From positions 1-42,488 of IMG/VR virus record IMGVR_UViG_3300012920_000085: a stretch of 42,488 nucleotides of DNA; one strand, written 5' to 3'. A model generated the notes under the pieces. It had not been told where the DNA came from and did no database searches. It saw only the letters and a program-made list of their open reading frames with translations. Every line of letters begins with the position of its first letter. Position 1 is the first letter of the stretch. Origin of the DNA: a virus. Positions 18,244-42,488 of this stretch are shown one piece after another. The position numbers were made by a program, and so were the translations under genes.

Positions 18244-19176
18244 TTATACCCCAAGTGCAATCGCTAATGCTGTTGATGTGTTATCTACATACTTCTTATT
18301 ACTTATGCCATTTGCTGTTGTTGGTTGATTAGCAACGGTTCCAGAAGTAAATGCTCCTGTTGATGCTGTAGTTGCACCAATAGGTGTGTTATTGATTGTT
18401 GTGTTTACTACTGCTACATCTGATCCATTACTATCAATTTTTCCTATAATAGCATCATTTATAACAAAATCTAATTTGTTTCCAGCACGTAAAACAATAT
18501 TTGTTCCTGCATTAAATTCAGCAACACCTAATCCGTTTACACTTAACGAATCTCCTGTTAATTTTCCTTGTACTGCTAAGTCTCCAGTAACTGTGCCATT
18601 ACCGTTTAATGTTAGTGCTGTTGCTGTAACTGCCTGTAAACTTGTTGTACCAGTTGCAGTGAGATTAGCAAATGTTGCATCTATTGCAACTGGATTGGTT
18701 ATGTTTATAACACCTCTTATACTACCTGTAGAATTACCATAATACAAAGTATCTGGCGCATTTGTTGGAACAGTGAATACTACTTTGCCTGTTGATTTAC
18801 CTTGTGCCGCGGCACCTGAAGTTGTTGTGCCATCATCTGCTTGATGTTGTATACCATCGTTATATCTTACTAAACCTGTTGAATCTAAAATATTAAATGA
18901 AATTGGTGCTGATGATAAATCAAGTGTAAAACTGTATTCTTGTCCACGCACAAACGCAAGTGTAGGATTATCCCCGCTACCTACAATAACTGTGTTGCTT
19001 GCAACTCTAAAATTTCCATTAACTTCAGAAACAGTGAAATCGCCTGATGCACTTCCTCCACCGCCTGCTCCTGCCGCATTAATAGATGTTGCAGTAATAT
19101 TTCCTAATCTATCTACAGTAAATCCAGGACTCTTAAACCCAAATTCTGATTCAAATTGACGTTCTTCTACGGCCAC
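18244..19176 (-). CDS. Virion structural protein with a ligand-less cupredoxin-like module
   Basis: A 310-residue protein, probably a tail-fibre or baseplate-associated part. Residues of about 70-160 (PTLAFVRGQEYSFTLDLS through FTVPTNAPDTLYYGNSTGS) match the C-terminal module of the 36778-37506 protein (PTLNLYEGQTYTF through FKVPVNAPTLYYYCVNHPG), but its Cys, His and Met are replaced here. The C-terminus SNKKYVDNTSTALAIALG resembles the ends of phage fibre proteins with NKKYVD/TQKA repeats. The start is GTG at 19176, chosen for the GGAG 7 bases upstream; a GATAAATA promoter lies at 19197-19204. Three bases separate it from the giant gene, so the two are probably co-transcribed. No enzymatic motif was found. 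Confidence 0.72.
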   Translation of the reverse strand: MAVEERQFESEFGFKSPGFTVDRLGNITATSINAAGAGGGGSASGDFTVSEVNGNFRVASNTVIVGSGDNPTLAFVRGQEYSFTLDLSSAPISFNILDSTGLVRYNDGIQHQADDGTTTSGAAAQGKSTGKVVFTVPTNAPDTLYYGNSTGSIRGVINITNPVAIDATFANLTATGTTSLQAVTATALTLNGNGTVTGDLAVQGKLTGDSLSVNGLGVAEFNAGTNIVLRAGNKLDFVINDAIIGKIDSNGSDVAVVNTTINNTPIGATTASTGAFTSGTVANQPTTANGISNKKYVDNTSTALAIALGV

Positions 19177-24094: not shown

Positions 24095-24102
24095 TATTTA
24101 TG
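24095..24102 (-). promoter_or_regulatory. Late-type promoter (CATAAATA) overlapping a stop codon
   Basis: Minus-strand TCATAAATAAACAG. The TAA inside the element is the stop codon (24098-24100) of the preceding cysteine-rich gene. It is placed about 22 bases before the 24073 ATG. Confidence 0.65.
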
Positions 24103-25072: not shown

Positions 25073-26029
25073 CTAACTTTCTATAAACTTAATTCTAATT
25101 GCACCCATACCGCCACGTGTTGCGTGATCTCTCACACCTGGACAAGGTTGAGGTCCTGGACCACCTGTTCCATATGGCATTGTACTTTGACAACCGTTTG
25201 TATTGTAACAACCACAACTAGTATCATTTTGGTAACATGCTTTCCATGTTAATCCTTGACCTGGTGATCTACCTGTTCCGTTAATTGCGGCAGTTGCTTC
25301 AAACTGTCCCATACCTGACCAACGTGAGTGTGCTGAGTCATCTGACATACCGTACTGTACAACACCGCCACACTCTGAAATCATTCCTGGAGGAAATGCT
25401 AACATGCCTCTAAATAAACATACACATGCCGGACGGCAACCATGAAAGCCCATACATGATATGTTTCCACATCTATTAATATCTCCACCATATGCTATAG
25501 CGTCCCATTGTCCTGTACACTGATTACATATTGTTCCACAGTTTGGTCCTGTGTTAGTATAACAAAATCCGTTTGCTCTAAAACAACAGTACATACTTGT
25601 ACCTGTTGAGCAGTAACTTACTCCGCCTTTACCACCTCTAGCACACATACAACTGTTTCCTGACGCCGCTACCATACAAACCATTGTTGGTTCTGAACAG
25701 CCTCTGAAACATAATGCGTCTGAGTTACCACATGCAAAACCTGTACATCCATACAAGTAATCTGATGTAGTCATTACTTTTGTTGTTTTTGAATAAGCAC
25801 CTGAGTTGCCTGGTAATCCATTACCACAACAACACATTTTTGCGCCTGATCCTCCAGCACCCCATACTTCGATTATGGCTGTACCGTTTGAACATGGGCA
25901 CCAACATGTACACTTACAAAATTTGCTGTAAGTATTACCTTCAGAGAAACTATATAACCTACCTGTTTCTAAGTTATCTTCTGCTGAGGGCGGACTTTTC
26001 GCCTTAATTAATGCTTCTAATGATGCCAT
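25073..26029 (-). CDS. Cysteine-rich, glycine-rich virion protein, copy 2 (adhesin-like)
   Basis: A 318-residue paralogue of the next gene with about 33 cysteines. The shared frame is LEALIKAKSPPSAEDNLETG, AIIEVWGAGGSGAKMCCC, GNSGAYSK, RGCSEP, CMCARGGKGG, AYGGDINRCG, PPGMISECGGV, PGVRDHATRGG and the end GAIRIKFIES. Most cysteines line up between the two copies while the residues between them differ strongly, suggesting a conserved Cys scaffold with variable loops, as expected for a surface-exposed binding protein. The extra CKCTCWCPC near residue 38 is unique to this copy. AGGAG precedes the ATG. It is probably in one transcript with 24098-25057. The function is inferred from composition and context only. 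Confidence 0.62.
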   Translation of the reverse strand: MASLEALIKAKSPPSAEDNLETGRLYSFSEGNTYSKFCKCTCWCPCSNGTAIIEVWGAGGSGAKMCCCGNGLPGNSGAYSKTTKVMTTSDYLYGCTGFACGNSDALCFRGCSEPTMVCMVAASGNSCMCARGGKGGVSYCSTGTSMYCCFRANGFCYTNTGPNCGTICNQCTGQWDAIAYGGDINRCGNISCMGFHGCRPACVCLFRGMLAFPPGMISECGGVVQYGMSDDSAHSRWSGMGQFEATAAINGTGRSPGQGLTWKACYQNDTSCGCYNTNGCQSTMPYGTGGPGPQPCPGVRDHATRGGMGAIRIKFIES

Positions 26030-26730: not shown

Positions 26731-29700
26731 TTAATTATTTAGGAACATACTTAATGCTACTGGAGCACCGTCTATTCCACCTTTAAAGTTTACTGCGTTA
26801 AGTATATTTATCCTACCGCCGTCTGTCGTTGATATTTGGTTTTGAGTAACCTCAATAACACCTGCTGTTACACTGTTTACGTTCAATGTAGCAACACCAC
26901 CACCAATTTGTGATGTGATGTATGTTTTGATTGCTTTTTGTGTTGGAACAACATTATCACTATCAGCACTAAACGTACCGTCTGTGCTAAATTCAGTAAT
27001 AACTGCTCCTGCACCACCAAGTGCAACACTTCCTAGTTGTAATTCGTTCAATCCTGAAATATTAAACGCTTCAACATTCAATGTTGCAATACCAGTAGCC
27101 TGCTCAACGTTAAACAGTCCACCTACTCTAAAGTTACCATCTTGGTCTGTACTTGTGTAGAACACTCTTCCGCCACCAAAATCATTAGTTTCATATTGTG
27201 GATTTGGATCTACTAAAGGTGTTCCTGGATAATTTGTATTTGCAAAGTTTCCTGTACCAATATCCAAGAAATCGTGTCCAGTTAAACGCACCTGCGAATA
27301 ACGTCTACGTATTGTAATTGCATCATCGTGTGGTGGTCTTTCTGATGCTTCTAATGGTGGACTTACTTGTAATAATGCACTGTAAGGTCCTGCACCTAAT
27401 AAACTTGTTATGCTAACAAGTTTGAACCATCTATTTGGTAAACTTGCAAATTCTACATTTGCTCCTTTTTGTGGAACCAAACTTAAATTATCAACTCTAA
27501 TTTTTGTACCAGACTGTCTAATATCTGCAAAACCATCACCTACAACTTCTGCCGCCGCAGTAATAAATCCTGTACCTCTATTAGAGAAAGTAGGTTGTGC
27601 TAGTACACCGTTACCAATTCTAATTGAATGTGGCACCATAATTGTGTGACTTGGATCAACTATTGTCATTTGTGGTGCAACAGTATACCCGCTACCTGGT
27701 TCAATTATTTTAACTTCTACAACTTTTTCATCTGCTACTCTTGCTCTACCTCTTGCTCTTGTACCACTAGTAGGTGCTGTAAATATTACTCTAGGAGTAA
27801 TATCATATGCTGTTGTTGCATCAAGTGTATTTGCAATTGATGAACCTTTAATATGTTCGAAACCTGCTGTACCATCTGACTCTTTTACAATAGTTGCAAT
27901 TTTTGTTGATGCATTAAATGATGAAATTACTCCATATTGTCCTGCACCTAATCCGCTTAAAATATAAAGCATCATACCATTGTATGTGCCGGTTGGTTCA
28001 ACATCAGTTGCCGCTAGTGTAATTTGTGTAGCGTTACCTGCTTGAGCATTTGATGCTATAGTTTTGAAACCTGCACCACCATATGTACTTGAGTCTTGAT
28101 CAAGTTGTACTTCAAACACACCGCCGTTACGTATAACTGGTGCACTTACTGCGGCTCCGAAACCTTCACCGGTAAGTGTGTATCTTGTTGCCGCACCAAT
28201 TGTTTCAACATCGAATGTTACATTAGCCGCGCCACCGCCTCCTAGTAATGAATCATTTACTGTAATTGTATCATTGATTGCGTGTCCAGTACCACCTTTA
28301 ATTACTGTTACTTGAACTCCGCCAACTGAAGTTATTTCAATATCAAATTCTTGTCCTGTACCAGAACCATTACTTGCACCTGTAATACCTTTATATGTTC
28401 CCTTAACTCTAGCAGGATCATTATTGCTAATATTATCTACTGTAAGGATTGCAGTTGTTGCTTCTGTAGTATAGCCTGTACCAGCATTTGAATATTCTAG
28501 TTGTAATATTTCATTTGCACCATCTGTAACAACATTTGAAATCTGTGCTTCAAGTTGTTGGTTATCAACTTTACCTGTTACAGGACTTTCTGTAACATCA
28601 ATACCTTCAGCAACTGAACCAAAGTCTCCGTATGAGTTGTTTCCGTTTGTAGCACGAATCTTACCACCGTTTTCTGCTAGGTAACCAATATGGTTGTAAT
28701 ATGTAAACACAGAAACAAGTTCTGATCTACCTAAGTTTGTAACCCAATAACCAATACCGTCACTTAAAATTTGTGTAAAGTCGTTTGCAACGATTGAATC
28801 ATTACCACCGTTGTGTAAGTCACCATCTACTTTTAAGCCTATACATGCTGTACCAAATGTAGTAACATTTTGTACGTATGGGGATTTATTAGTAATCCAA
28901 GCATCTGTATGATCTGGTCCCCAACTTGGATCTAATGATACATAAGCACCCGAACTTGGACGTTTTGTACCATAACTATTAGCACCGCTAAGTGTACCAC
29001 TTAATCCAGTTAGTGTACAGTTTCTTAAACCTGTTCCGTTACGTGCATAGAACATATCATTTAAAAAGTTACCTGATACTGAATTTACATAATATTTTCC
29101 GTTTAGTAATGTTCTATAATTACCAGTGTAAATTAAATCATGTTTAACACCATCTATATAAGCGTTTACATCTCTTGCACAAGCCGCTAGTGTATATGTG
29201 TAACTTGGATAAGTTACTGCAATATAAGCATGTACTTCTGCAATTATAAAGTCTCTGTTTGCTTCTAATACTTCAACAGCATATGTGTATCCTGTTGATG
29301 TTTCTGGGTCATTTGAACCACGCATAACTGGCTCTGAACTATCTCCACTAACACCGTTAACGCCCCAATCTATATAATCTCTAAGTTCTCTAAATAAGTT
29401 TGCTGTTGCTGTACCTGCACTTGCACTACCTGCAGGTCTTGTTGTTACCTGTGTTGCACTATTGCCTGTTGATTTTGTAATTGCAACGTTTTGTACAATA
29501 TTGCTTACGACTGCTTCTATTCGCTCAATAGCCGCAATACTTTTTGGAACATCTGCCGCATTTGTTTGACTTGGTGCTGGTGTTATTCTTGTTGAACGAA
29601 GTTCGTCACCAACAATAGCAACATCTTCTGGAATAATAATTGGAAGTACTTCTTGATATTCTCCAGTTTTAACAAATATAGTTTTTTGTGCATGTAATTC

Positions 29701-31806
29701 TGCTGGAACATTATTAATATTTCCTGCTGTAATTGCATTTGTAATAATGTCAATCAAAGCCGCAATAGTTGTAGTTGTACCGGTTGTTGCTTCATATGCA
29801 CTTAATTTTTGTTGTGTAATCGGACTTGCAACACTGTTTAATGTTTGATAATTTGCCGCTGGATCTGTTTTTGCAAGAATGTTTGGCATAATACTATCTA
29901 AGTAATTTATAGCCGCCACAGTTTGTGCTTCTTGACCACTAATATAACTTAATCCACCAGGTGTAAAATATGCTAGAGCCGATTCTCTTGATCGCACATT
30001 GCCTCCGTGACTTAAATCCCATGCAATAGCATCAATAATTATACCTGTATCTCTACGACATTTTGCTTTGTCGTATGTAAACGCTCCTGTAAATGGTGAA
30101 ATAGCATTTGCAATTTGATAATCAACCCATTCTACAACTTCTGCTTGTAAAAATGATCTGTTTGCTTCTATTAAAATTCTATCATTTTGATTTACGGAAC
30201 CATCTCTAATTTGTTCTGTTGCAAAACGTATAGTTTTGAAAGGTCTATCTAATGTAATACCTCTATCCGGAGTTTTTCCGTCAACCCCATTTGCTGTATC
30301 TACATAGTAAATATGATTTATTGCTCCAAAGTATGTCCACTCAGGTGCAGTTTGTGCATCATTAACTTTTAATACCTGTCCTGGTTTACCAACTGGTAGT
30401 CTTGCAGGACCTGAACCACCGTAGTAAACAATGTCACCAACTGTAGTTAAGTTTCCTGATTCTGCACCACCACTCATAAAGTTCCAAAATGCTCCGCCTG
30501 TATCGTTAGCAGGATCATTTACTCCATTACTTGAAGTGTGTGATTGTACTGCGATGTAACTGTTCACACCTTGTTGCACAGTATCACCTAAGTCATAATA
30601 TGTTGCATCAGTCCAAGTGTTTCTCCAGTTTGCACCTTCATTTAATTTTTCCCAATAAGTTAAATTAGGTGGTCTTACGCCATTTGAATTTGCTATTGCA
30701 AGATAAGTGTATCCACCTACTCTAACAACATCACCTGTTCTATAATCTTGGTTTGCACTATCATCTCCATAGTCACCCCTTAGATTAAATCCAGTTGCAA
30801 ATACGTCCCAGTCACTTGGATTATCTGTTGGATGTTTTTCTGTATTGTTTGTTTTTGCAACATAAGTGTATCCACCGTATGTTACAATATCACCTGGCTG
30901 GTAATCTGAATAAGGTCCCCAACTATCTTCAAATTCTAATCCTGGAACAAATTGTGCCCAGTTTGCTTCATCAGTTTTTAAATCTGCCGCAACGCTTGAA
31001 GTATGATGAGTTGTACAAATCCATAATCCACCAGAGTCTTTTACAACATCATTAACTTTGTATCTAAATGCACTTGCCCATTCACCTAAGTATTCAATAC
31101 CTTTGTGAAAGTAATCCCATTTTGCTTGGTCTGCTTCAAGACCTAGTGTACCGGTTGCCGCAGAAGTATGACCTGTGTTACAAGAATAAACTTGTCCACC
31201 ATATTTAACTAAGTCACCTACGGTATAACGTGTGCCAGTTGCCCAATCTGTTTTCCACATGAATCCGTCACTAATGACATCCCATGATGCTTGATTTAAT
31301 TCTAATCCTGATGTAGTATTTGGCGCACTTACATGATATCCTGTACAAATATAAATTCTTGATCCATATTTTACAATATCATTTACTTTATAACGTGTGT
31401 TGATTGCCCAGTTGCCTTTATAGTCGAAGCCCTCACCGTATAAATCCCAATATGCTGAAGTACTGTCATCTCCTAGGTTACTTTCCAAACCACCAATGGC
31501 ACTTGCGTCTGAAATGTGTCCTGTGTTACAAATGTAAAGTTGTCCACCATATTTTACAATATCATTTATTCTATAAACTGCACCAGTTGCCCAGTCACCT
31601 CTCCAAGTTTGACCGTCTGCAAACTGTTGCCACTTAGGTGTAGAATCGTTTAGATCTAACATAAAGTCAGTTTGAGATATGTGTCCTACTACACACATAA
31701 ACGTTTTACCGCCATATCTTACTACATCATCTTTGTAGTAAGTGGTTGCTTCAGACCATTCGTCCTTCCAAATAAATCTAATTCTACCTAATTTAAATTC
31801 TGCCAT
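26731..31806 (-). CDS. Large fibre-like virion protein 1 (carbohydrate-binding-type repeats plus beta-helix)
   Basis: A 1691-residue protein. Residues 1-450 are eight repeats of 50-60 residues with W-x5-T-x-Y-x4-D-x-V-x-YGG-x2-Y-x-C-x3-HTS, like CBM5/12-type chitin-binding modules. A beta-helix-type region follows (IYYVDTANGVDGKTP, FKTIRFATEQI, TIFVKTGEYQEVLPIIIPED), interrupted by two modules with CRRDTGIIIDAIAWDLSHGG and CARDVNAYIDGVKHDL. Residues of about 940-1130 (YVSLDPSWGPDHTDAWITNK, ILSDGIGYWVTNLGRSELVS) match fibre 2. The C-terminal part holds LTGHDFLDIGTGNF, YTSTDQDGNFRVGGLFNVEQ and VPTQKAIKTYI, also shared. GGAG precedes the ATG; promoter at 31830-31837. Most likely a tail fibre or side spike that touches surface polysaccharide; catalytic activity is not evident. 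Confidence 0.8.
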   Translation of the reverse strand: MAEFKLGRIRFIWKDEWSEATTYYKDDVVRYGGKTFMCVVGHISQTDFMLDLNDSTPKWQQFADGQTWRGDWATGAVYRINDIVKYGGQLYICNTGHISDASAIGGLESNLGDDSTSAYWDLYGEGFDYKGNWAINTRYKVNDIVKYGSRIYICTGYHVSAPNTTSGLELNQASWDVISDGFMWKTDWATGTRYTVGDLVKYGGQVYSCNTGHTSAATGTLGLEADQAKWDYFHKGIEYLGEWASAFRYKVNDVVKDSGGLWICTTHHTSSVAADLKTDEANWAQFVPGLEFEDSWGPYSDYQPGDIVTYGGYTYVAKTNNTEKHPTDNPSDWDVFATGFNLRGDYGDDSANQDYRTGDVVRVGGYTYLAIANSNGVRPPNLTYWEKLNEGANWRNTWTDATYYDLGDTVQQGVNSYIAVQSHTSSNGVNDPANDTGGAFWNFMSGGAESGNLTTVGDIVYYGGSGPARLPVGKPGQVLKVNDAQTAPEWTYFGAINHIYYVDTANGVDGKTPDRGITLDRPFKTIRFATEQIRDGSVNQNDRILIEANRSFLQAEVVEWVDYQIANAISPFTGAFTYDKAKCRRDTGIIIDAIAWDLSHGGNVRSRESALAYFTPGGLSYISGQEAQTVAAINYLDSIMPNILAKTDPAANYQTLNSVASPITQQKLSAYEATTGTTTTIAALIDIITNAITAGNINNVPAELHAQKTIFVKTGEYQEVLPIIIPEDVAIVGDELRSTRITPAPSQTNAADVPKSIAAIERIEAVVSNIVQNVAITKSTGNSATQVTTRPAGSASAGTATANLFRELRDYIDWGVNGVSGDSSEPVMRGSNDPETSTGYTYAVEVLEANRDFIIAEVHAYIAVTYPSYTYTLAACARDVNAYIDGVKHDLIYTGNYRTLLNGKYYVNSVSGNFLNDMFYARNGTGLRNCTLTGLSGTLSGANSYGTKRPSSGAYVSLDPSWGPDHTDAWITNKSPYVQNVTTFGTACIGLKVDGDLHNGGNDSIVANDFTQILSDGIGYWVTNLGRSELVSVFTYYNHIGYLAENGGKIRATNGNNSYGDFGSVAEGIDVTESPVTGKVDNQQLEAQISNVVTDGANEILQLEYSNAGTGYTTEATTAILTVDNISNNDPARVKGTYKGITGASNGSGTGQEFDIEITSVGGVQVTVIKGGTGHAINDTITVNDSLLGGGGAANVTFDVETIGAATRYTLTGEGFGAAVSAPVIRNGGVFEVQLDQDSSTYGGAGFKTIASNAQAGNATQITLAATDVEPTGTYNGMMLYILSGLGAGQYGVISSFNASTKIATIVKESDGTAGFEHIKGSSIANTLDATTAYDITPRVIFTAPTSGTRARGRARVADEKVVEVKIIEPGSGYTVAPQMTIVDPSHTIMVPHSIRIGNGVLAQPTFSNRGTGFITAAAEVVGDGFADIRQSGTKIRVDNLSLVPQKGANVEFASLPNRWFKLVSITSLLGAGPYSALLQVSPPLEASERPPHDDAITIRRRYSQVRLTGHDFLDIGTGNFANTNYPGTPLVDPNPQYETNDFGGGRVFYTSTDQDGNFRVGGLFNVEQATGIATLNVEAFNISGLNELQLGSVALGGAGAVITEFSTDGTFSADSDNVVPTQKAIKTYITSQIGGGVATLNVNSVTAGVIEVTQNQISTTDGGRINILNAVNFKGGIDGAPVALSMFLNN
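30450..31795 (-). repeat. Eight CBM-like coding repeats at the N-terminus of fibre protein 1
   Basis: Units start near W-x-G/D-x-W and contain YKVNDIVKYGG-type cores, for example YRINDIVKYGGQLYICNTGH, YKVNDIVKYGSRIYIC and YTVGDLVKYGGQVYSC. The last two units (YRTGDVVRVGG, YDLGDTVQQGV) are the most divergent. The second fibre has the same number at the same place. Confidence 0.78.
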
Positions 31807-31847: not shown

Positions 31848-34800
31848 TTAATCCCCTAATCCTGGAAATCCTCCTGTAGCGTCAGGGCTACCTGAGACAA
31901 AGTACGCTTGTGCCGCCATATCACCGCCAACTGTTCCTGCTCCGCCTTGTATACTGACTGGAGCGTTGAATGTAATAGTTCCACCTAAAGGTTTAAAGAT
32001 TTTATTACCTTCAAAACTAATATTACCAGCATTTAATCTGTTAACCTTAAGATCTGAACCACCAGATGATACTCTTGATTGTACATATTTGCCGATTGCT
32101 TTTTGAGTTGGTACAATATTATTAGAATTAGCCGCAAATGTCGGATCTGTACTAAATTCTCTAATTACAGCCCCTGTACCACCAAGCACAACTCCGCCTA
32201 ATCTAAGTTCTTCTAAACCATTTAGATCAAAGAAACTAGCATTAATACTAATTGTACCCGTTGCCTGTTCAACTTCAAATAATTCACCTACTCTAAAGTT
32301 ACCATCTTGGTCTGTACTTGTGTAGAAAACACGACCGCCATCATATTGTAACACTTCGTTAAACTGTTTAGGTTCTGCGTTCTCATCTGGATTGTATCCA
32401 AATACATATAATCCTGGATAATTTGTTCTTGAAAAGTTACCTGTTCCAATATCAAGGAAGTCATGACCAGTAAGTCTAATTTGACTATACTGCTGTCTAA
32501 TAATTACACTTTCACCGTGTACTGGTGCTTCTTGTCTTCCTAAGTTTGGACTAATTTGCAACCTTAAATTGTAACCTCCTAGAATACCTGTCTGTTCCAA
32601 GATTTTAACAACAAAATATGTTACTCCGTCAATGCCTGTAATACTAATATTGTCTCCAGGTCCAGGAATTTTACTAACATTTTCTAGAATTAATTCATCT
32701 GCAATTTGTAATAGTTCTGCATAACCATCGCCTGCTGTGATTGATGCTTGTGATCTAAAGTATCCTGTACCTCTGTTTTGCATAGTTGGTTGCGGTAACA
32801 CACCGTTTGCAACTTCTGCTATTGTTGTTACATCTGAAGAATTTTTATTGTCATGCACTACTACAGTAGGATTATCTGTATAGCCAGCACCTGGTTCATG
32901 TAAAATAAATGTTCCAATTCTGCCACTACCTACAATTGGTCTACAAAGTGCTTGTGTACCATATGTAATCTTGTCGCCATTAGATTCGCCAGAGGTTACA
33001 ATAATCCATTCGCTTGTTGTTCTTGCACCTGCTACTCCTCCACGAGTTTCAAAACCTGCTCCTAATAATTTTGTTCTCCAATGATATCCGTCTCTACTAA
33101 ATGCAATAACATCTGATTGAGATCCTGTATCACTTTTGACTGCACAGAATGTTCCTTGTGCATAACCTATACCTGTCCACTCTCCTGGTTCAATACTTCC
33201 TGCATACCAAGTTATACCATCATAACTAACTGCTGTTTCTGCTGTACTACTATCTGTTTTTGCAGTCATAGCAACAAATCTATCTCTACCATATGTTACT
33301 TTCGACCAAGCACTAGATGCTGGAAGAGTTACTGCTGTCCAACTTGACCCGTCATCTGTTGAATATGCCGCGTTATTACTAGGATTAGCCGCTGTACCAG
33401 CAATGGCTACAAATTTTCCGTCACCGTAAGTTACATCTGACCAGTAATCAGCATTTGGTAACGTTCCGCCTGCACCCCAACTGTTGCCGCCATCAGTAGA
33501 TCTAATTGTAGCATTTGTTGCTCCGCCTGAGTCAACAAGTGTACCTACCATAAAGTTACCTTCAGTATTTTGTCCTGCCAAACCTGTAAGTGTGTTTGTT
33601 GCTGTTAGTCCACATGTTGTATCACTCCAAGTTGCACCCCCATCAGAACTATGTGAACCTGCATTATTATTTCCATCTGGATTTACCAATGATATTGTTC
33701 CGTTACCTATAGCAACAAATCCGCCTTTTGAGGATCTATCAGTATGTGACCAACCATTACCATCTGTACTAACGCTAACACCTTCAGGATGACCTGCTAC
33801 CCAAATATCTTGGCTATTGTAAGTTCCCCTAACAATATCATTCCAAGCAGGTGATGTACCACCTAAACCTGTTGTTTGTATTTGGTAACTAGGTTCTGAT
33901 ATAACTGCTCTTGGCTCTATGTAATAACGTGCTGTATCATTTAATGTTGCCTCAATAGGTTGCCCCGTAACATGTTCCCATCCTGGTTCGCCATTTACCT
34001 CTTTTTCTACTGTAGCAATTTTACTAATAGTATTGAATCCGCTAATTCTGCCATATTGTCCTGCACCTTGACCTTCATATATAAACAATCTTTGTCCAAT
34101 ATAATCTGCAGGATCTGTAATATCGTCTGCTCCACTTAGTGTAAGTGAAGTTGTTGTACCAATTTGTGCTTTGTTTGCTTTGAAAGTATAACCACTACCT
34201 CCAATAAAGTTTGAATCTTCTTCTGTAACAAATACTTGTTTAACACCGCCATTTCTAAATTCATTAAATGTAGCACTAGCACCTTGACCATTTCCTGTTA
34301 TTGACATTGTTGCATTAGTATATCCTTCGCCTGCGTGTGTATAAGCAACTCCGTGTATTTCATTTCTATCGCCATAAGTTTGATAAATTTGTGCTTCTTT
34401 ACTTCTATTGTTTACAGTAGCAGTAATAGGAACTTCGTCAATATCATATCCTTCTGCAACACAACCATATTCTCCATAGGAATTGTTACCGTTCAATGCA
34501 CGAACTTTACCGCCTGCTGTTGCCAAATAACCAATATGACAATAGTAAGTAAACACAGACACAAGTTCTGATTTACCTTCACCGTTTGCCCAATAACCAA
34601 TACCATCACTTAGTATTTGTGTAAAATCGTTTGCAACAATTGATTTGTTTCCTGTGCTATGTAAATCTCCGTCAACTTTCATTCCTATACAACCTGTTCC
34701 AAACGTAGTAACGTTTTGAACGTATGGAGATTTTGTAGATATGTGTGCATATGACGCATCAGGACCTGTTGCTGGGTCTAATGAAACATAAGCACCTGCT

Positions 34801-36758
34801 GATGGTCTCCTTGTTAAGTTATCATTTGGATTACCAAGTGTTCCTGTTAAACCTTGTAGAGTCATGTTACGTAAACCTGATCCATTGTGCATGTAAAACA
34901 TGTTGTCTAATTCATAACCATCTGCCGGCATAACAACAGTTGAACGTAATTCATCTCCTACAACAGCAACATTTGCCGGAATAACCATTGGAAGTAATTC
35001 TTTATATGCTCCAGTTGAAACAAAAACTGTAGCAGGAGTTCGCTCTGCTAAGTTACCTTGCAAAAATTGTAATGCATACTTAATTGTTTTGAAAGGCGTT
35101 GCGGCATTTGTCCCGTTTTCAGGAATATCTTCCCCTGTGGTGCTTACATACCAAACCTTGTTAATTTCAAACAAGTTTTCATATTTCAAAGTTGTATCTT
35201 CATCAACTTTTAGTAATTCACCTGCTTTTCCTATTGCTAGTCTTGCTGTGCCTAATGTGCTTCCGTCATCTTTAGTTGCGTAAGTTCTAATATCACCTCT
35301 ATAACGTAATACGTTATTTGTAGCACTAGTTTCGTTATTACCCATATATTTTGTCCAGTAATAATCATTACCAGTTAGTGTATCAGTATCTATTCTTGGT
35401 CTTGATTCAAATATATTACTGTAGTGTTGTTTTTTACAAATGTAAGTTTCACTTTCATCCATTACAACTTCGCCTGGATAATATTGGAAGAATGTGCTAT
35501 CTGCGCCTGTGCCTTGAGATTCTGACCATTCACCTTTCCAAGCAATACCTGTAACGAGAAGTTTCCATTTGTCACTTGTATCTGTATCAGGATCTCCTGG
35601 TTCTACATTCTCAACTGGTAAAATATTTACTAGTGCTTCGTATAAGTAACCACCTTTACGTACAACACTTCCTGGAGCATAAATGTTAGTTACGTCCCAT
35701 TCACCTTTCATCTTGTATCCACGTACAAGTACTTCCCAATCTGCACCTACACCGTCTTGCTCTAAACCAAATGCACTTGGATTTGAACCAATGTTGATTT
35801 CTAAAGCAGTGTACGTATATCCTCCATATTGTACAATGTCTCCTGGTTGATAAACTGAATTAGGATCCCATATTTCTTCAAAACCTAATCCTGGTAGCCA
35901 AATTTCCCAGTCATCTTGATCGTCAAATGTGTCTGTACCACTCATTCCTCTTTTTGCAATATATAAGTTTGGACCGTAAGTTACAATATCGTTAGTTTTG
36001 TACCATTGTGTACCTGACCAATTACCTTTGTATTCTATGCCTTCAACAACTTTTTCCCATTTTGCCGCCGACGAATCATTTCCTAAATCAGTACCTATAC
36101 CTTCTCTTATATCATCATTACTTGTATGCCCAACAATACAACGATATACGTTACCTCCATAACGCACAATGTCGTCAACTTTGTATCTTGTATTTGCTAA
36201 CCAAACACCTTGCCAGTTATCACTTCTATTGTATGTTGCCCATTTTGATTGATCTGCTTCTAAACCTGCTTCAACATTACTACTTGTATGATCTACTATA
36301 CAAGTATAGAGTTGTCCACCGTATTTTACTAAATCGTTTTTCTTATAAATTGTGCTGGCTGTCCACAATGCAAGATAGTTTACACCTTTAGCAAAAGGTG
36401 ACCATTTACCATCATCATTTTCTAATCCAGAATTTAATGTTGAAGCACTTGTATGACTATCTATACAGAAATAAACTATACCTCTATATTTTACAACATC
36501 ATTTACTTTGTAGAATGCCTCTGGTTGCCAATCGCCTTTCCATGCTTTACCATCGCCCATTTGTTCCCATTTAGGAGTTGATTCTCCTGCAACAAGAAAG
36601 TCTAGATCAGTGTTAAAATCTGCACTTGCTGTATGACCGGATAAAGCAACAAAAACTTTACCTCCATAACTAATAACATCGTCTTTTCTATATGCTGTGC
36701 CGGTAACCCATGGACCTTTCCAGTTAAATCTAATTCTATCAATTCTAAATTCTGCCAT
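31848..36758 (-). CDS. Large fibre-like virion protein 2 with an Asp-box propeller insertion
   Basis: A 1636-residue paralogue of fibre 1. It has eight N-terminal CBM-like repeats (YRKDDVISYGGKVFVALSGH, YKVNDVVKYRG, YKVDDIVRYGGNVYRC), a beta-helix-type region (VWYVSTTGEDIPENG, FKTIKYALQFLQ, AVVGDELRSTVVMP), YVSLDPATGPDASYAHISTK and SDGIGYWANGEGKSELVSVF, then a shared C-terminus with LTGHDFLDIGTGNFSRTNYP, YTSTDQDGNFRVGELFEVEQ and VPTQKAIGKYVQ. Unlike fibre 1 it carries about 300 residues with six Asp-box-like motifs (SxDxGxxW). It lacks the two CRRDTG-type modules. AGGA precedes the ATG; a weak AATAAATA is at 36789-36796. Probably a second receptor-binding fibre or spike. Confidence 0.8.
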   Translation of the reverse strand: MAEFRIDRIRFNWKGPWVTGTAYRKDDVISYGGKVFVALSGHTASADFNTDLDFLVAGESTPKWEQMGDGKAWKGDWQPEAFYKVNDVVKYRGIVYFCIDSHTSASTLNSGLENDDGKWSPFAKGVNYLALWTASTIYKKNDLVKYGGQLYTCIVDHTSSNVEAGLEADQSKWATYNRSDNWQGVWLANTRYKVDDIVRYGGNVYRCIVGHTSNDDIREGIGTDLGNDSSAAKWEKVVEGIEYKGNWSGTQWYKTNDIVTYGPNLYIAKRGMSGTDTFDDQDDWEIWLPGLGFEEIWDPNSVYQPGDIVQYGGYTYTALEINIGSNPSAFGLEQDGVGADWEVLVRGYKMKGEWDVTNIYAPGSVVRKGGYLYEALVNILPVENVEPGDPDTDTSDKWKLLVTGIAWKGEWSESQGTGADSTFFQYYPGEVVMDESETYICKKQHYSNIFESRPRIDTDTLTGNDYYWTKYMGNNETSATNNVLRYRGDIRTYATKDDGSTLGTARLAIGKAGELLKVDEDTTLKYENLFEINKVWYVSTTGEDIPENGTNAATPFKTIKYALQFLQGNLAERTPATVFVSTGAYKELLPMVIPANVAVVGDELRSTVVMPADGYELDNMFYMHNGSGLRNMTLQGLTGTLGNPNDNLTRRPSAGAYVSLDPATGPDASYAHISTKSPYVQNVTTFGTGCIGMKVDGDLHSTGNKSIVANDFTQILSDGIGYWANGEGKSELVSVFTYYCHIGYLATAGGKVRALNGNNSYGEYGCVAEGYDIDEVPITATVNNRSKEAQIYQTYGDRNEIHGVAYTHAGEGYTNATMSITGNGQGASATFNEFRNGGVKQVFVTEEDSNFIGGSGYTFKANKAQIGTTTSLTLSGADDITDPADYIGQRLFIYEGQGAGQYGRISGFNTISKIATVEKEVNGEPGWEHVTGQPIEATLNDTARYYIEPRAVISEPSYQIQTTGLGGTSPAWNDIVRGTYNSQDIWVAGHPEGVSVSTDGNGWSHTDRSSKGGFVAIGNGTISLVNPDGNNNAGSHSSDGGATWSDTTCGLTATNTLTGLAGQNTEGNFMVGTLVDSGGATNATIRSTDGGNSWGAGGTLPNADYWSDVTYGDGKFVAIAGTAANPSNNAAYSTDDGSSWTAVTLPASSAWSKVTYGRDRFVAMTAKTDSSTAETAVSYDGITWYAGSIEPGEWTGIGYAQGTFCAVKSDTGSQSDVIAFSRDGYHWRTKLLGAGFETRGGVAGARTTSEWIIVTSGESNGDKITYGTQALCRPIVGSGRIGTFILHEPGAGYTDNPTVVVHDNKNSSDVTTIAEVANGVLPQPTMQNRGTGYFRSQASITAGDGYAELLQIADELILENVSKIPGPGDNISITGIDGVTYFVVKILEQTGILGGYNLRLQISPNLGRQEAPVHGESVIIRQQYSQIRLTGHDFLDIGTGNFSRTNYPGLYVFGYNPDENAEPKQFNEVLQYDGGRVFYTSTDQDGNFRVGELFEVEQATGTISINASFFDLNGLEELRLGGVVLGGTGAVIREFSTDPTFAANSNNIVPTQKAIGKYVQSRVSSGGSDLKVNRLNAGNISFEGNKIFKPLGGTITFNAPVSIQGGAGTVGGDMAAQAYFVSGSPDATGGFPGLGD
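32945..33900 (-). other. Inserted Asp-box (BNR-like) beta-propeller domain in fibre 2
   Basis: Six motifs occur in order: STDGNGW, SSDGGATW, STDGGNSW, STDDGSSW, SYDGITW and SRDGYHW, each followed by repeats such as VTYGDGKFVAIAG and VTYGRDRFVAMTA. This is the S-x-D-x-G-x-x-W turn of sialidase-type propellers. The flanks (RAVISEP before; RPIVGSGRIGTF after) continue the alignment with fibre 1, where nothing comparable is present. The catalytic sialidase arginine triad is not evident, so a binding role is more likely. Confidence 0.72.
35310..36745 (-). repeat. Eight CBM-like coding repeats at the N-terminus of fibre protein 2
   Basis: These have the same W...Y-x4-D-x-V-x-YGG-x2-Y-x-C/A-x3-HTS unit as in fibre 1. 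The eighth unit is longer (ESQGTGADSTFFQYYPGEVV). Equal number and order in both fibres indicate that they duplicated as a block. Confidence 0.78.
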
Positions 36759-36777: not shown

Positions 36778-37506
36778 TTATGTAAGTGTATTTATTTGTC
36801 CACCCATACCCGGATGATTAACACAGTAATAGTATAGAGTTGGTGCATTTACTGGCACCTTAAACTTCACATAACTACCTTCGACGCCGGGAACGCCCAA
36901 TACTGTTACACCATTTGTATATTCTACACCGCCACCGTGTGTACCATCAGCAGTTGTAGATAATCTCAAAGGATGAGTTGAATTTGTTGAATTACTTTGT
37001 CCAAATGTATATGTTTGACCTTCATATAAATTCAGTGTTGGACTGTTTATTCCATTTACGTAATATTTGTTACCCGCACCATATCTATTTGTACCGGCGG
37101 CAACAGTTATCTGATAAAAGTTTTTATTGTAATCTGTTAATCCATCACTACTTACATCTGTTGGATATTCGTGATGCTCATTAAATTTAAGTATAAATTC
37201 TCCGTCTGCATTTATATAATAATTAATGTGTCTATTATCCCATCTTAATTGTTCGTAATTTAAATTAGGATACACAAGTTCATGGTTTTGATCTCTGCCT
37301 TCAAAGAAATCTATACCTTGTTCGAAATCATTATAATTTTGTTCTGGATCTCCAGGTTTGTTAATTTGTATACTTGCGTTTGAATCCATTTGATCAATCT
37401 TTGTAAAAAATAATTCGCCTTGATCTGTTCTACGTAAGGCATACATATATCTACCGTCAATGTTTCCAGTTATATTTGTTACATCATTTCCTGCGTATTG
37501 ACTCAT
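36778..37506 (-). CDS. Virion protein with a C-terminal cupredoxin-like (amicyanin-type) copper motif
   Basis: A 242-residue protein. Residues 1-125 are polar with no recognised domain (GDPEQNYNDFEQGIDFFEGR, YYINADGEFILKFNEHHEYP). Residues of about 128-242 look like a small beta-sandwich: YQITVAAGTN, PTLNLYEGQTYTFGQ, STHPLRLST, YVKFKVPVNAPTLYYYCVNH, then PGMGGQINTLT. The final loop has Cys228-x2-His231-x2-Met234, the spacing of the type 1 copper site of amicyanin, with His178 as a possible fourth ligand. The 310-residue protein at 18244-19176 has the same module with these residues lost. GGGAG precedes the ATG. Virion location is inferred from the neighbouring fibre genes. The fold call is moderate; copper binding is a hypothesis. 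Confidence 0.62.
   Translation of the reverse strand: MSQYAGNDVTNITGNIDGRYMYALRRTDQGELFFTKIDQMDSNASIQINKPGDPEQNYNDFEQGIDFFEGRDQNHELVYPNLNYEQLRWDNRHINYYINADGEFILKFNEHHEYPTDVSSDGLTDYNKNFYQITVAAGTNRYGAGNKYYVNGINSPTLNLYEGQTYTFGQSNSTNSTHPLRLSTTADGTHGGGVEYTNGVTVLGVPGVEGSYVKFKVPVNAPTLYYYCVNHPGMGGQINTLT
36789..36796 (-). promoter_or_regulatory. Weak late-type promoter candidate (AATAAATA) for fibre protein 2
   Basis: Minus-strand CAAATAAATACACTT, about 30 bases before the 36758 ATG and inside the end of the preceding gene. It differs from the C/G-initial pattern of the other elements. Confidence 0.4.
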
Positions 37507-37850: not shown

Positions 37851-40800
37851 TTATCCTAATACTAATACAAATTCTAGTGCGATTCCTTCCGCATCATTTC
37901 TACTTATCCCGCCTGCAGATCCTGCAACACTTGCCCAGTTTGTACCATCATAGATCTCAACACGATCATCTTCGTTGTTGTATCTCATCATGCCTACTTC
38001 AGCATTACTAGTTGTAGGACGTTGAACGTTATTACCAACTGGAATAACTACTCCGCCTGTGCCGCCAAACTTATAGTAGCCATTTGCAGTTGAATTGAAT
38101 AATGTTACACTATCAGAAACAGTGTTTGTAAATGAATTTTCATCAACTTTGAAGTAATCTAGTAAAATTCCACCAGTACCGTTACCTGATAATACCAAGT
38201 CTGCATTAGTAGTTATCGTTTTAATTTCATTACCGTCAATTTCTATATCATCAACAATTAATTTGTTTGTACTAAAGCGTTGACTTGTCAAATCTGCTGT
38301 TAAAGCACCTGCATTGTAGAATCTAATTACATTATCATTTGCACCCGGTATTAATTCTGGTGTTATTTTCGTATCACCGTCGCCATCTTGTAGGCCATCG
38401 TGCAATGATACCCACTGACCGTTGTATCCTTCAAAACTGTTTGTATCAGTGTTATAACGTAACATACCTGTAACAGGTGTGTTGTTGCGATCTGTTGACG
38501 CACCTTTTGGTAAAATTACACTATCAATACTATCAATTTTCAATACACCACTACCTGGATTCAACACCATATCTGCTGTACTACTAATAATATTAGTATT
38601 GAATTTGATATCATCTAATGATACTTTACCAGTACCGTGTGCTCTTAATTCTAAATCACTGTTAGATTGTGTAGTAGTAATAAAATTATCATCAATTAAA
38701 ATATCACCAGTGCTGAAACTATTTGCTGTTACTCTGCCCAAAGCATCTAAGTTATCTGCATTCAATACACCTTGAACAGTTAAGTCTTTTTCAATTACAA
38801 CATTATTACTTGGTACAATTACTGTACCTGTTCCACTTGCTTCTAGTTCTAAGTCACTGTTAGATTCTGTTGTTGTAATTGTATTGTCGTTTATTTGTAT
38901 ATTATCAAAATTAATTTGACCTTGCACAGTCATATTATTATTAATTGTAACATCATCAAACGTTGCTGTTGTACCAGTTACATTGCCTACAAAAGTTGTA
39001 GTGCCATCAACTGTTAAATTGTTTTTTGCAGTTGTATCACTTAAAAATGAAATATTACCTGTACCATTTGCACGTAATTCTAAATCACTATTTGATAATG
39101 TTGTTGTAATATAGTTGTCATTGATTTCAATGTCTTCAAATTGTACTTGGCCATTTATATTAAGTTCTCTATTGACTGTCAAACTATTAGTTGTATAAAC
39201 ATTACCAGACAAACTATTAAATTGTACAGTACCTGTAACATTTAAATCTCCTGTGATGTCTACATCATTATCAGGAAAAACAATATTACCTGTGCCTGAG
39301 GCTCTTAATTCTAAGTTACTATTTGATTCTGTTGTAGTAATATAGTTGTCATTAAATTCTATATCTTCTAAATTAAGTTGACCATTAAATGTTGCTGTGT
39401 TTACAGTGATAGTATCAGCAGTTATTGTTCCACTTGCCGCTAGGTTCGCAAATTGTGCAGTACCTGCCACAGTAATGTTTCCGCCAACTTCTAAGTCTGC
39501 ATCTGGAAAAACTACTCTTCCTGTTCCTGCCGCATCAAGTTCTAAGTCACTGTTTGAATCAGTTGTTTGTATCTTGTTACCTGATATAAAAATATTTTCA
39601 AATTGTACACTATTATCTACAATTAATCCATCACGTACTGTGAGGTTTGCATTAATTGTTGTGCTAGAACCAGTTTGGTTTATACCACCTGTAACATTTA
39701 AATTGTTGTTTACTGTAACAGTGTTATTAAATGTTGCAGTATCATTTGCTGTAAATGTTCCTGTTATTTCTACATTATTATTAGGAACAACTACTGATCC
39801 TGTGCCAGATGCAACAAGTTCTAAATCGCTGTTACTGTCTTGTGCTGATATTGTGTTGCCTTCAATTTTAAGATTACCGTTATCAAAATTATTAGCGTAA
39901 ATATTTTTCCAACGTTTTGTGGTTTTACCTAAATCAAAAGTATTATCTGTATTTGGTAAAATATCACTGTTTACATCAGAAGCAAATTCAACACTATCTG
40001 TATCTGCATCACCTATTGTAATATTACCGCCAAGTGTAAAGTTTCCTGTAACTGCTAAGTTACCTGTTATGTTTGTGTCTGCTTGTATATCAACTGTATT
40101 TGTTGCACTATCAATAACAAAGTTTTGTGTAAGTGTTTCAATAGTGTTTCCGCTTAATCTAAAGTCACCTGTTTCAATTTTTGTTCCGTCAATAAATGTT
40201 ACATTACCGCCTGAACCAAAAGTAATACCTTGTGGTGTATTGATGTTTAAATTTACAGCATCAAAAACAACTTCACCTGTTTCTTGATTAACAAAAAAGT
40301 TGTCACCAACTCTAAAGTCTCCTTTTTGGTCTACACTTGTAAATCTTACTTTTGCATTGTTAAGTTCTTCAACTTCGTTTGCTTGTATTACAGTTGTTTC
40401 ATCATTGGTAACTTCTTTGCCATTTCCTATGTATGCAAAGTTGTGTCCTATCAAATACATTAACACACCGTTACCATCGCCTACTGCACCTTTGTTACCG
40501 TAGATGTTTGCTGATCCTATTGATCTAATTTCTGCACCAAAGTCTGTTGTGTTGTATAAGTCAATAAAGTTAGCAGTTGCCCCGCCACTAAATGTTAAAT
40601 TTTGTTTTACTTTGACATCTTCCGTAATTGAAGTTGCATTATTAGCGCCATCTAAATGTGTAAGAAACACAGTGTTGCTGTCGCCAACAATTTGTGATGT
40701 AGGCACTGTATAAGTTGTATCAAGATACCTTGCACTGTTACTAATTCTTATGTCGTCTATACGACCGTTCTGTATAAAAGATGTGGTTGCGTAGTCAGTT

Positions 40801-42488
40801 CCTATTTTAAGTGGCTTTGTGGTTCCATAATCGTTGTTGTCAACGTATGTGCTACCTACTTGATTACCGTCAAGATATAATCTTGTACCACCAGCAAATC
40901 TACTTACTGCAACATGATGCCATTGGTTATCAGATAGTGTTCCGGCACTTATTACTGTAGCATCACCAACATTATATTTCAATGCTCCTGATTGGAAATA
41001 AAAGTAAGGCGCTGTATCTGCCGCAATACCTGCTCTAAAATCAAATATAGGATTTTCAAAAGGAGATGATGATGCAACACCTGAATAAATCCACGCTTCT
41101 ATAGTGAAATCATTTGTGCCAAAACCAAAATCGTCATGAGCACCTAAACTTAAAAAACTGCCCGGAGCAACTAAGAATAAACTTGATGTTCCAAACTTTT
41201 TGGTTGTAGTGTCTAATTTTGCATTACCATTAAATGCTATTGCTTTTGCTGTTCTTGTTGTTGCTTCTGTTATGCCTTGTATATTTCCATCAATGTAAAA
41301 TTTTCCGTCAGCATCTTTTCTGTCAATAACACCGCTTGCTAATACAGTACTACCGTCTATGCTGTTTACAGCAAAAGTTTCGCCTGCACTGAAACTACCT
41401 GTTACATCACTTACTCTAAATTCTGTTTCTCCTGATCCTTTTAATCCTGTTGAACCGTTTAAGGCATAAAAACCTCTGTTTGCAAAGTATGTAAATGAAT
41501 TTAACCATTCTACTCTTACACCGTTTTTACATGTTAATGCATCTACGCCTGGAGTAATAAATGTTGCGGCATGAAATAGACAACTTGCTTCTTTTGAATC
41601 AGCGTGTGCTACACTACCATCTAACAAAGCACCCCTACCTGCGTCTCCTTGATTGAAGCCTCTTGGATCACTTGCATTTGTAACTGAACCTTTTGTAATA
41701 ACAGTTACGTTTCTAATATATGGACTACGTGATGTAACTTTAAAGTTAGGTGCAAATTTAAATGCATATCCAACATCTGTTCCGCTGTTGTAGTAAAAAT
41801 CTTGTATAGTCAAATCTTCTATAGTAGTTTCACCGTTCAAATGAAATACATCTTCCGAGTCAACACTATCAGGTTTAATAGTAACTGATCTCATTCCATG
41901 TCCTTTTATTGTAACACCTGCTGGTACTACTAGAGGAAGTCTTTCTTGATATACTCCTGGATAAATGTGAATAGTATCTCCTGCTGTTGCATTTTGTATT
42001 GCTTTCTCAACAGTTTGATAAGGTGCTTGCGGATGGTTACCTGCATTGTTATTGCTACCGTTTTCTGAAACATATAAAGTATTAGCGTGTCTAGTACCTA
42101 AGTTTATTCCTGCTATATTTGCTGTTTGTGCATTTATAATTTGTCCGTTAACATTTTCTACATGAACATTGTTCCATGCTTTTGTACTAGTACCTAAATT
42201 ATATGTGTTGCTTGCATTTGGTATTATATTACTTGCAATTTCAGCATTAAAATCAATACTATCTGTATCAGCATCACCTAATACAATATTACCGTCTGCA
42301 CTAATATTTCCTGTAGCGTGTAAATTACCAGATACATTTGTGTTTGCTAATAATTCAATAGTACCTGTGCCGCTTGGATTTATTTCTAAATTTGCGTTTG
42401 AATCTGTTGTTCTGATAGTGTTGTCGTTTATTTCAAAACTATCAATTATAAGTTTGTTTTGGAAGACTACTTGATCAGCAGTACCTAA
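37851..42488 (-). CDS. Large tail-fibre-like protein with LamG-type lectin domain (N-terminus outside window)
   Basis: The frame is open from 37851 to the window edge (1546 codons less the stop), so the true start is beyond 42488; the in-frame ATG at 41894 is internal. The first residues seen carry a fibre repeat (IRTTDSNANLEINPSGTGTI), then IIPNASNTYNLGTSTKAWNN and a beta-helix-type segment (HANTLYVSENGSNNNAGNHP, GVYQERLPLVVPAGVTIKGH). About 40640-41225 encodes a concanavalin/LamG-like lectin domain (DDFGFGTNDFTIEAWIYSGV, WHHVAVSRFAGGTRLYLDGN). Next is LIGHNFAYIGNG and FTSVDQKGDFRVGDNFFVNQ, the module shared with the other two fibres. The remainder is repeats with TT-x-SNSDLEL-x-A-x-GTG. The C-terminus is short and Gly-rich. 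Probably a long tail fibre with carbohydrate-binding capacity. Confidence 0.8.
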   Translation of the reverse strand, partial: LGTADQVVFQNKLIIDSFEINDNTIRTTDSNANLEINPSGTGTIELLANTNVSGNLHATGNISADGNIVLGDADTDSIDFNAEIASNIIPNASNTYNLGTSTKAWNNVHVENVNGQIINAQTANIAGINLGTRHANTLYVSENGSNNNAGNHPQAPYQTVEKAIQNATAGDTIHIYPGVYQERLPLVVPAGVTIKGHGMRSVTIKPDSVDSEDVFHLNGETTIEDLTIQDFYYNSGTDVGYAFKFAPNFKVTSRSPYIRNVTVITKGSVTNASDPRGFNQGDAGRGALLDGSVAHADSKEASCLFHAATFITPGVDALTCKNGVRVEWLNSFTYFANRGFYALNGSTGLKGSGETEFRVSDVTGSFSAGETFAVNSIDGSTVLASGVIDRKDADGKFYIDGNIQGITEATTRTAKAIAFNGNAKLDTTTKKFGTSSLFLVAPGSFLSLGAHDDFGFGTNDFTIEAWIYSGVASSSPFENPIFDFRAGIAADTAPYFYFQSGALKYNVGDATVISAGTLSDNQWHHVAVSRFAGGTRLYLDGNQVGSTYVDNNDYGTTKPLKIGTDYATTSFIQNGRIDDIRISNSARYLDTTYTVPTSQIVGDSNTVFLTHLDGANNATSITEDVKVKQNLTFSGGATANFIDLYNTTDFGAEIRSIGSANIYGNKGAVGDGNGVLMYLIGHNFAYIGNGKEVTNDETTVIQANEVEELNNAKVRFTSVDQKGDFRVGDNFFVNQETGEVVFDAVNLNINTPQGITFGSGGNVTFIDGTKIETGDFRLSGNTIETLTQNFVIDSATNTVDIQADTNITGNLAVTGNFTLGGNITIGDADTDSVEFASDVNSDILPNTDNTFDLGKTTKRWKNIYANNFDNGNLKIEGNTISAQDSNSDLELVASGTGSVVVPNNNVEITGTFTANDTATFNNTVTVNNNLNVTGGINQTGSSTTINANLTVRDGLIVDNSVQFENIFISGNKIQTTDSNSDLELDAAGTGRVVFPDADLEVGGNITVAGTAQFANLAASGTITADTITVNTATFNGQLNLEDIEFNDNYITTTESNSNLELRASGTGNIVFPDNDVDITGDLNVTGTVQFNSLSGNVYTTNSLTVNRELNINGQVQFEDIEINDNYITTTLSNSDLELRANGTGNISFLSDTTAKNNLTVDGTTTFVGNVTGTTATFDDVTINNNMTVQGQINFDNIQINDNTITTTESNSDLELEASGTGTVIVPSNNVVIEKDLTVQGVLNADNLDALGRVTANSFSTGDILIDDNFITTTQSNSDLELRAHGTGKVSLDDIKFNTNIISSTADMVLNPGSGVLKIDSIDSVILPKGASTDRNNTPVTGMLRYNTDTNSFEGYNGQWVSLHDGLQDGDGDTKITPELIPGANDNVIRFYNAGALTADLTSQRFSTNKLIVDDIEIDGNEIKTITTNADLVLSGNGTGGILLDYFKVDENSFTNTVSDSVTLFNSTANGYYKFGGTGGVVIPVGNNVQRPTTSNAEVGMMRYNNEDDRVEIYDGTNWASVAGSAGGISRNDAEGIALEFVLVLG
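38120..40060 (-). repeat. Tandem fibre repeats with the SNSDLEL-x-A-x-GTG motif
   Basis: At least seven units occur: SNSDLELVASGTG, SNSDLELDAAGTG, SNSNLELRASGTG, SNSDLELRANGTG, SNSDLELEASGTG, SNSDLELRAHGTG and TNADLVLSGNGTG. Most full units are about 65 residues and are linked by segments such as VTGTVQFNSL. One more copy (SNANLEI) sits upstream near 42385. Typical of elongated phage fibre shafts. Confidence 0.78.
40640..41225 (-). other. LamG / concanavalin A-like lectin domain inside the partial fibre
   Basis: A jellyroll pattern of about 190 residues: KFGTSSLFLVAPGSFLSLGA, FTIEAWIYSG, FDFRAGIAADTAPYFYF, LSDNQWHHVAVSR, TRLYLDGNQVGSTY, LKIGTDYATTSFIQNGRIDD, IRISNSARY. The FTIEAWIY, WHHVAVSR and IDDIRISNSARY blocks are diagnostic of the LamG-like jellyroll superfamily, which commonly binds glycans. 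Confidence 0.8.

Follow-up and report, generated by a model that had tools for sequence, protein, structure and literature searches.

Copper proteins, metal in phage tails, and the gene at 36778..37506

The small blue copper proteins, such as plastocyanin, rusticyanin, auracyanin, and amicyanin (PF00127, PF13473), are built on the cupredoxin fold and present their ligands in the order His ... Cys-x2-His-x(n)-Met; in amicyanin, the spacing within the loop is C-x2-H-x2-M. Cupredoxin domains are also found in the laccases, CueO, and the nitrite reductases, and in the laccases the first type 1 His lies within an HP motif. In such cellular proteins, the type 1 site is a site of electron transfer. 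Among phage proteins, the closest counterparts are PSSM2_298 of P-SSM2, a long fibre with an endosialidase-type chaperone domain and a match to Pfam Copper-bind, and cyanophage gp9, the baseplate wedge tail-fibre connector, whose module carries HP[FLM] followed by C-x2-H-x2-M and is joined to an N-terminus of the T4 gp9/gp10 type. In addition, iron-binding HxH motifs in the tail fibres of marine phages have been discussed as being of the Trojan-horse type (PMC11705849).

The protein considered here, P0001, shares both fold and ligand order with the small blue copper proteins, and its loop has the C-x2-H-x2-M spacing of amicyanin. However, it falls below every one of their curated sequence cut-offs, it is a module within a tail-region protein that lacks an export signal (the N-terminus was judged by eye), and it has HPL where plastocyanin has HN. 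The cupredoxin domains of the laccases, CueO, and the nitrite reductases supply the highest fold matches of the P0001 model among those listed, and P0001 shares with the laccases the HP at the first His of the site; neither a second copper domain nor type 2 or type 3 motifs were seen in its 242 residues. PSSM2_298 contains the same module with intact ligands, in a sister subfamily that is more plastocyanin-like. The gp9 module belongs to P0001's own family, although the N-terminus of P0001 is different. The HxH fibres likewise place metal in marine phage tails, in the form of iron between pairs of His residues (PMC11705849), whereas the site proposed in P0001 contains a Cys and lies inside one domain.

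The gene lies on a 42,488-base virus contig from IMG/VR, the whole of which was analysed (hereafter, the window) and in which sheath and head-tail adaptor genes are present. It occupies 36778..37506 on the minus strand, and it has the appearance of a small tail-region protein to which a C-terminal cupredoxin module was fused, since its N-terminal part (residues 14-118; 37153..37467, minus) resembles PSSM2_300, a stand-alone protein of 119 aa (31% identity, E 2e-10 for the pair); the same part matches phrog_8997 with an E of 3.8e-19. The first-pass annotation had reported a C-x2-H-x2-M motif near the C-terminus, with His178 as a possible fourth ligand. The ORF was confirmed, and the four residues lie where they had been numbered: the translation ends in FKVPVNAPTLYYYCVNHPGMGGQINTLT, which, with the ligands at their positions, reads TLYYYCVNHPGMGGQINTLT. 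Conservation and shared profile columns mark His178 of the HPL motif (36973..36975), Cys228 (36823..36825), and His231 (36814..36816) as the proposed type 1 copper ligands; Met234 (36805..36807), replaced by Gln or Leu in a few relatives, is the proposed axial ligand on the basis of conservation (all on the minus strand). C228 is the sole Cys of the protein. Shuffling P0001 produced C-x2-H-x2-M in 89 of 200,000 trials. In six-frame ORFs of at least 150 aa without a domain hit (292,189 aa), the motif occurred 4 times, 1 of these in another such domain, as against 116 occurrences in ORFs with a domain hit.

Upstream of P0001 lies a very long gene of baseplate wedge families (37851-41894), with a 109-aa gene in between, and downstream lies a very long gene of a tail fibre family (31848-36758). 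Genes for tail and baseplate, plus others, make up the neighbourhood that was scanned, and relatives of P0001 in S-TIM5 and S-TIM54 are annotated as virion structural proteins. This context suggests that P0001 may be present in the virus particle. Several other genes of the region were observed in passing. Two adjacent paralogues of ~318 aa on the minus strand (24098-25057 and 25073-26029) contain 30 and 33 Cys (9-10%), while all other window genes counted have less than 3%; the pair belongs to phrog_4205, to which no function is assigned, has no Pfam match, and possibly represents disulfide-rich tail proteins. The giant tail proteins at 26731-31806 and 31848-36758 (minus) have 8 and 5 matches, respectively, to the carbohydrate-binding module CBM_5_12. 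A Nol-like carbamoyltransferase gene (19652-21454, minus) lies within the tail region, and P-SSM2 also encodes a carbamoyltransferase close to its own tail genes.

Fold and sequence relationships of the C-terminal domain

The domain covers residues 143-242, with an approximate start (36781..37080, minus), as delimited by model fold matches and profile comparison. An AlphaFold2 model of P0001, built from 21 sequences, has a pLDDT of ~80-94 at residues 131-240 and below 50 for most of the remainder; consequently, no fold is claimed for the N-terminal part. When the domain model was compared with the PDB by Foldseek, all 50 matches listed were cupredoxin-fold proteins; rusticyanin was at the top of these (E 3.6e-4), and laccases, CueO, nitrite reductase, azurin, and SufI were among the others. 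SufI has the cupredoxin fold without copper, and its appearance counts against copper. VIA-align also gave cupredoxin-fold proteins only among the 50 matches listed, including the N-terminal cupredoxin of nitrite reductase (Z 8.4, 97 residues, 2.7 A), purple cupredoxin (Z 7.5), and plastocyanin (Z 7.0). Because Z values of 7.0-8.4 lie near or within the range that the tool calls common, the weight rests on the uniform list of matches together with the sequence. In the model, H178 lies just ahead of strand 180-183, C228 ends strand 224-228, and H231 and M234 are within the loop preceding the last strand (236-241). The ligands of plastocyanin have the same strand and loop placing. As far as it goes, the predicted fold favours the reading of the first-pass annotation.

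Searches of Pfam, NCBIfam, and the PDB sequences with P0001 itself matched no family or sequence, and the cut-off of PF00127 (Copper-bind) was reached neither by P0001 nor anywhere in the window; in Pfam, an Ig-like domain came closest for the full-length protein, with an E of 0.88. The cyanophage proteins are more informative. Full-length PSSM2_298 passes the Copper-bind cut-off (23.3 versus 21.2 bits), so that an automatic annotation of this tail protein as copper-binding likely exists. Its domain alone matches cupredoxin 1, auracyanin A, rusticyanin, and amicyanin among PDB sequences (E 7e-4 to 1.7), amicyanin ranking after the other three with an E of 0.18. An identification of P0001 as an amicyanin was set aside, since nothing but the loop spacing speaks for it. 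The PF00127 profile scored above its cut-off in 4 of 9 phage records, in ORFs of 107-131 aa, and gave sub-threshold matches inside ORFs of 816-1850 aa from P-SSM2, P-HM2, MED4-213, and P-TIM68.

Profile comparison connected the P0001 family with the sister-subfamily phage tail domains (99.2%, E 2.5e-19, for a single pair) and these, in turn, with phage plastocyanins (88.8%, E 2.5e-6); the direct comparison of the P0001 family with phage plastocyanins was weak (6.2%). His, Cys, and His share columns in all three alignments. By these comparisons, the cyanophage tail proteins form a bridge from P0001 to solved cupredoxins. PF25489, an At5g54830-like domain, is a possible distant relative of the family, to judge from sub-threshold matches in 4 of 21 members (best E 0.0041) and in S-SM1 gp9 (E 0.0031). 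The matches of profile A1 to antibody chains (E 0.02-1.4) were set aside, as they arise via the YYC motif of Ig V domains. Taken together, the model and the sequence comparisons leave little room for doubt that the C-terminal domain of P0001 has the cupredoxin fold and is homologous to cupredoxins.

The window contains a second, paralogous domain of this kind. Residues 40-162 of the gene at 18244-19176 (18691..19059, minus) are matched by the P0001 domain in tblastn with an E of 3.6e-4, and the ligands are absent both from this paralogue and from its nine aligned relatives. A model made from a separate alignment again gave only cupredoxin-fold proteins among the matches listed (best Z 9.9, 113 residues, 3.0 A). 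The fold can therefore exist without the ligands, and consequently the strict retention of the ligands elsewhere needs a separate reason. In S-SM1, the protein SSM1_104 (L222:19818-23981) has ligand-bearing and ligand-free copies of the domain side by side, and it also has a Pfam YHYH match.

Conservation of the ligand set

Copies of the domain were collected with a profile in which the four ligand columns were masked, leaving out identical copies and those of fewer than 65 residues. Among the 115 distinct copies, 101 have His/Cys/His/Met, 3 have Gln for Met, and 10 lack at least two ligands; the one remaining ('HCH-', L106) was trimmed at the profile edge before the Met, and the Met is present in a related copy from S-SM1 that was read over its full length. 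A Fisher value of 1.4e-12, from the table given by this count, is descriptive only, since the copies are related. The loci L021-L034 and L039-L096, among them L095 with undetermined bases, had been obtained with patterns that include the YYYC-NH or the DGTH loop, which biases the conservation seen in this sample; two ligand-blind samples were therefore drawn.

The first of these used the pattern GTH[GN][GES]Gx[EA]Y, which contains no ligand column, and took the best 80 of 584 relatives, a choice that favours consensus-like copies; 10 of the 80 loci have no row of their own, being identical copies or having fewer than 65 residues. All four ligands are present in 74 of the 77 distinct copies from these loci, and the exceptions are two with Leu for Met and one with Asp for His178 together with Leu for Met. 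The query for the second sample was S-SM1 gp9 up to residue 310, short of the domain. Among the best 80 of 550 relatives, HP[FLM] and C-x2-H-x2-M were found in all 77 loci that reach the C-terminus (51 distinct tails); the other 3 end at a contig edge. The check on conservation of C228, H231, M234, and H178 in homologues that the first-pass annotation named thus comes out in favour, also in samples blind to the ligands.

When 40 representatives of less than 60% identity were compared, His/Cys/His was kept in 35 (34 with Met, 1 with Gln) and all three were absent in 5; if each ligand were kept independently at 87.5%, ~13 mixed cases would be expected, a figure that ignores relatedness. At the level of sequence, His/Cys/His is kept or lost together, as a set. 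The nine best-kept columns in these representatives are the four ligands plus Y166, F168, G163, L224, and Y226. The ligand Cys is present in 184 of 193 copies, and merely 11 other Cys occur over 18,068 residues, so a disulfide cannot account for it. In copies that keep His/Cys/His, the axial Met alone varies, to Gln (3/115) or Leu (2/77). Both residues are known in this position from stellacyanins and laccases, and strict Cys/His/His with a variable axial ligand is what characterizes type 1 copper sites. The change to Gln, a stellacyanin feature, was seen in the bacterial relatives L084, L086, and L090. H190, in the DGTH loop, was considered as a fifth ligand and rejected; it is His in 89 of the 115 copies and is absent from copies with all four ligands, such as L056, L057, and L067.

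Distribution and possible role of the module

A tblastn search with the P0001 domain found 518 places in 301 of 50,697 phage records, mainly phages of Synechococcus and Prochlorococcus, with some of Pelagibacter and Methylophilales. Profile A1 detected 1 to 5 copies in each of 13 phage records tested, which were chosen for having one. S-SM1 gp9 (L222:18591-19814) has the T4 gp9/gp10-type N-terminus with the same kind of domain at its end, and a relative of P-SSM7 gp9 is present in 322 phage records, few of which were read for ligands. Bacterial and archaeal assemblies contain 58 loci with relatives. Some of these are phage DNA, as on a Pelagibacteraceae contig with a T7-type tail fibre N-terminus; a chromosomal example is a 1.19-Mb SAR86 contig, where genes for aldehyde dehydrogenase, BacA, and TsaD adjoin the relative. 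The N-termini of nine bacterial ORFs, judged by eye, are lipobox-like in 6 cases, signal-like in 2, and neither in 1, and some bacterial relatives are joined to cadherin, Ig-like, or PBP domains. By sequence, then, the module is widespread in baseplate and tail-fibre proteins of marine phages and in exported proteins of marine bacteria. The first-pass annotation had taken a copper-binding virion domain to be unexpected. Its reading of the metal site largely stands, while the idea of a one-off does not, since this is a common marine-phage module. Plasmids gave no match, and four related contigs had no match to psbA, which is no indication of the host. Giant viruses may hold the domain too, given that the BFVD matches of the P0001 model include beta-sandwich proteins of Pithovirus LCPAC302 (E 9.5e-6) and Marseillevirus LCMAC201 (E 1.8e-5).

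Given these findings, the C-terminal 100 residues of P0001 probably form a genuine cupredoxin domain in which the type 1 ligand set is intact, a portable marine-phage module predicted to bind copper; type 1 copper binding by the domain, taken by itself, has a good probability of being correct. It is one copy of a beta-sandwich module that marine phages use both in connectors of the baseplate and in tail fibres. Cells contain little free copper, and their cytoplasm is where phage tail proteins are synthesized. Because, in addition, P0001 has no export signal, it would be made copper-free in the cytoplasm of the host, become part of the tail, and be loaded with copper on arrival in the periplasm or in seawater. 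The bound metal would then lock the C-terminal loop, producing a rigid, exposed module that touches the host surface. That such a metal-locked surface module is the main use is a tentative proposal, suggested by the joining of the domain to unrelated tail parts and to adhesion-type exported bacterial proteins. The module can apparently also serve without copper, to judge from the 5 of 40 representatives that lack the ligands and from the paralogue.

Other explanations have been considered. The copper could be redox-active in infection, sensing or exchanging electrons at the host envelope and contributing to tail triggering at a place such as the joint that gp9 forms between baseplate and fibre. 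Such a role is possible, would be more striking, and has in its favour the electron transfer at type 1 sites of cellular relatives and the location of the module in a gp9-type baseplate protein; however, no redox partner was seen, and the occurrence of the module in many unrelated tail proteins and in bacterial cadherin/Ig-like proteins fits a structural use better, so we regard it as unlikely. It is rather improbable that fold and residues are as described here but the site holds zinc or iron, or is a metal-free core, the domain being a stable beta-sandwich spacer or adhesin. The retention of the fold in ligand-free copies indicates that the sandwich alone has a use, and conserved Tyr and Gly residues show a retention similar to that of the ligands, but the strictness of Cys/His/His, with only the axial place variable, and the sequence matches of the sister subfamily to copper proteins argue for copper. 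By analogy with the iron Trojan horse, tail-borne copper proteins might be mimics bound by the copper-uptake receptors of the host; the similar discussion of HxH iron motifs lends this copper piracy some plausibility (PMC11705849), but no receptor is known, and it is considered improbable. Finally, a chance motif within an Ig-like or other beta-sandwich, as the Ig-like and antibody-chain matches might imply, is contradicted by the Foldseek matches, the profile comparison, the PDB sequence matches, the all-or-none ligand set, and the uniform gp9 sample, and it can be dismissed as extremely improbable.

In S-SM1, 41 virion proteins have been reported, including T4-GC969, the neighbour of gp9 (PMC3037559). 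The domain match inside the T4-GC969 protein has no ligand set, and it is consequently no proof of copper in particles. The literature searched, which lay mostly outside subscription journals, yielded no description of a cupredoxin domain in a phage tail protein; metal in phage tails has been discussed for iron. If P0001 is indeed a copper-binding cupredoxin module, it offers a way into the function of tail and baseplate proteins now labelled hypothetical, and it points to a domain family for which neither Pfam nor NCBIfam has a dedicated model within reach of P0001. The occurrence of this domain in tail parts of very many ocean phages suggests that they may carry copper. A speculative extension, which we hold to be doubtful, is that marine T4-like phages and pelagiphages hold numerous type 1 copper centres in the connectors and fibres of each particle, which would be loaded, after release, with copper from seawater or the periplasm and needed for host recognition or tail triggering; the particles would then be an uncounted copper ligand of the surface ocean. 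Since the residues of a putative electron-transfer copper site are retained together across so many tail proteins of marine phages, it becomes a testable question whether the particles contain copper and whether infection depends on it.
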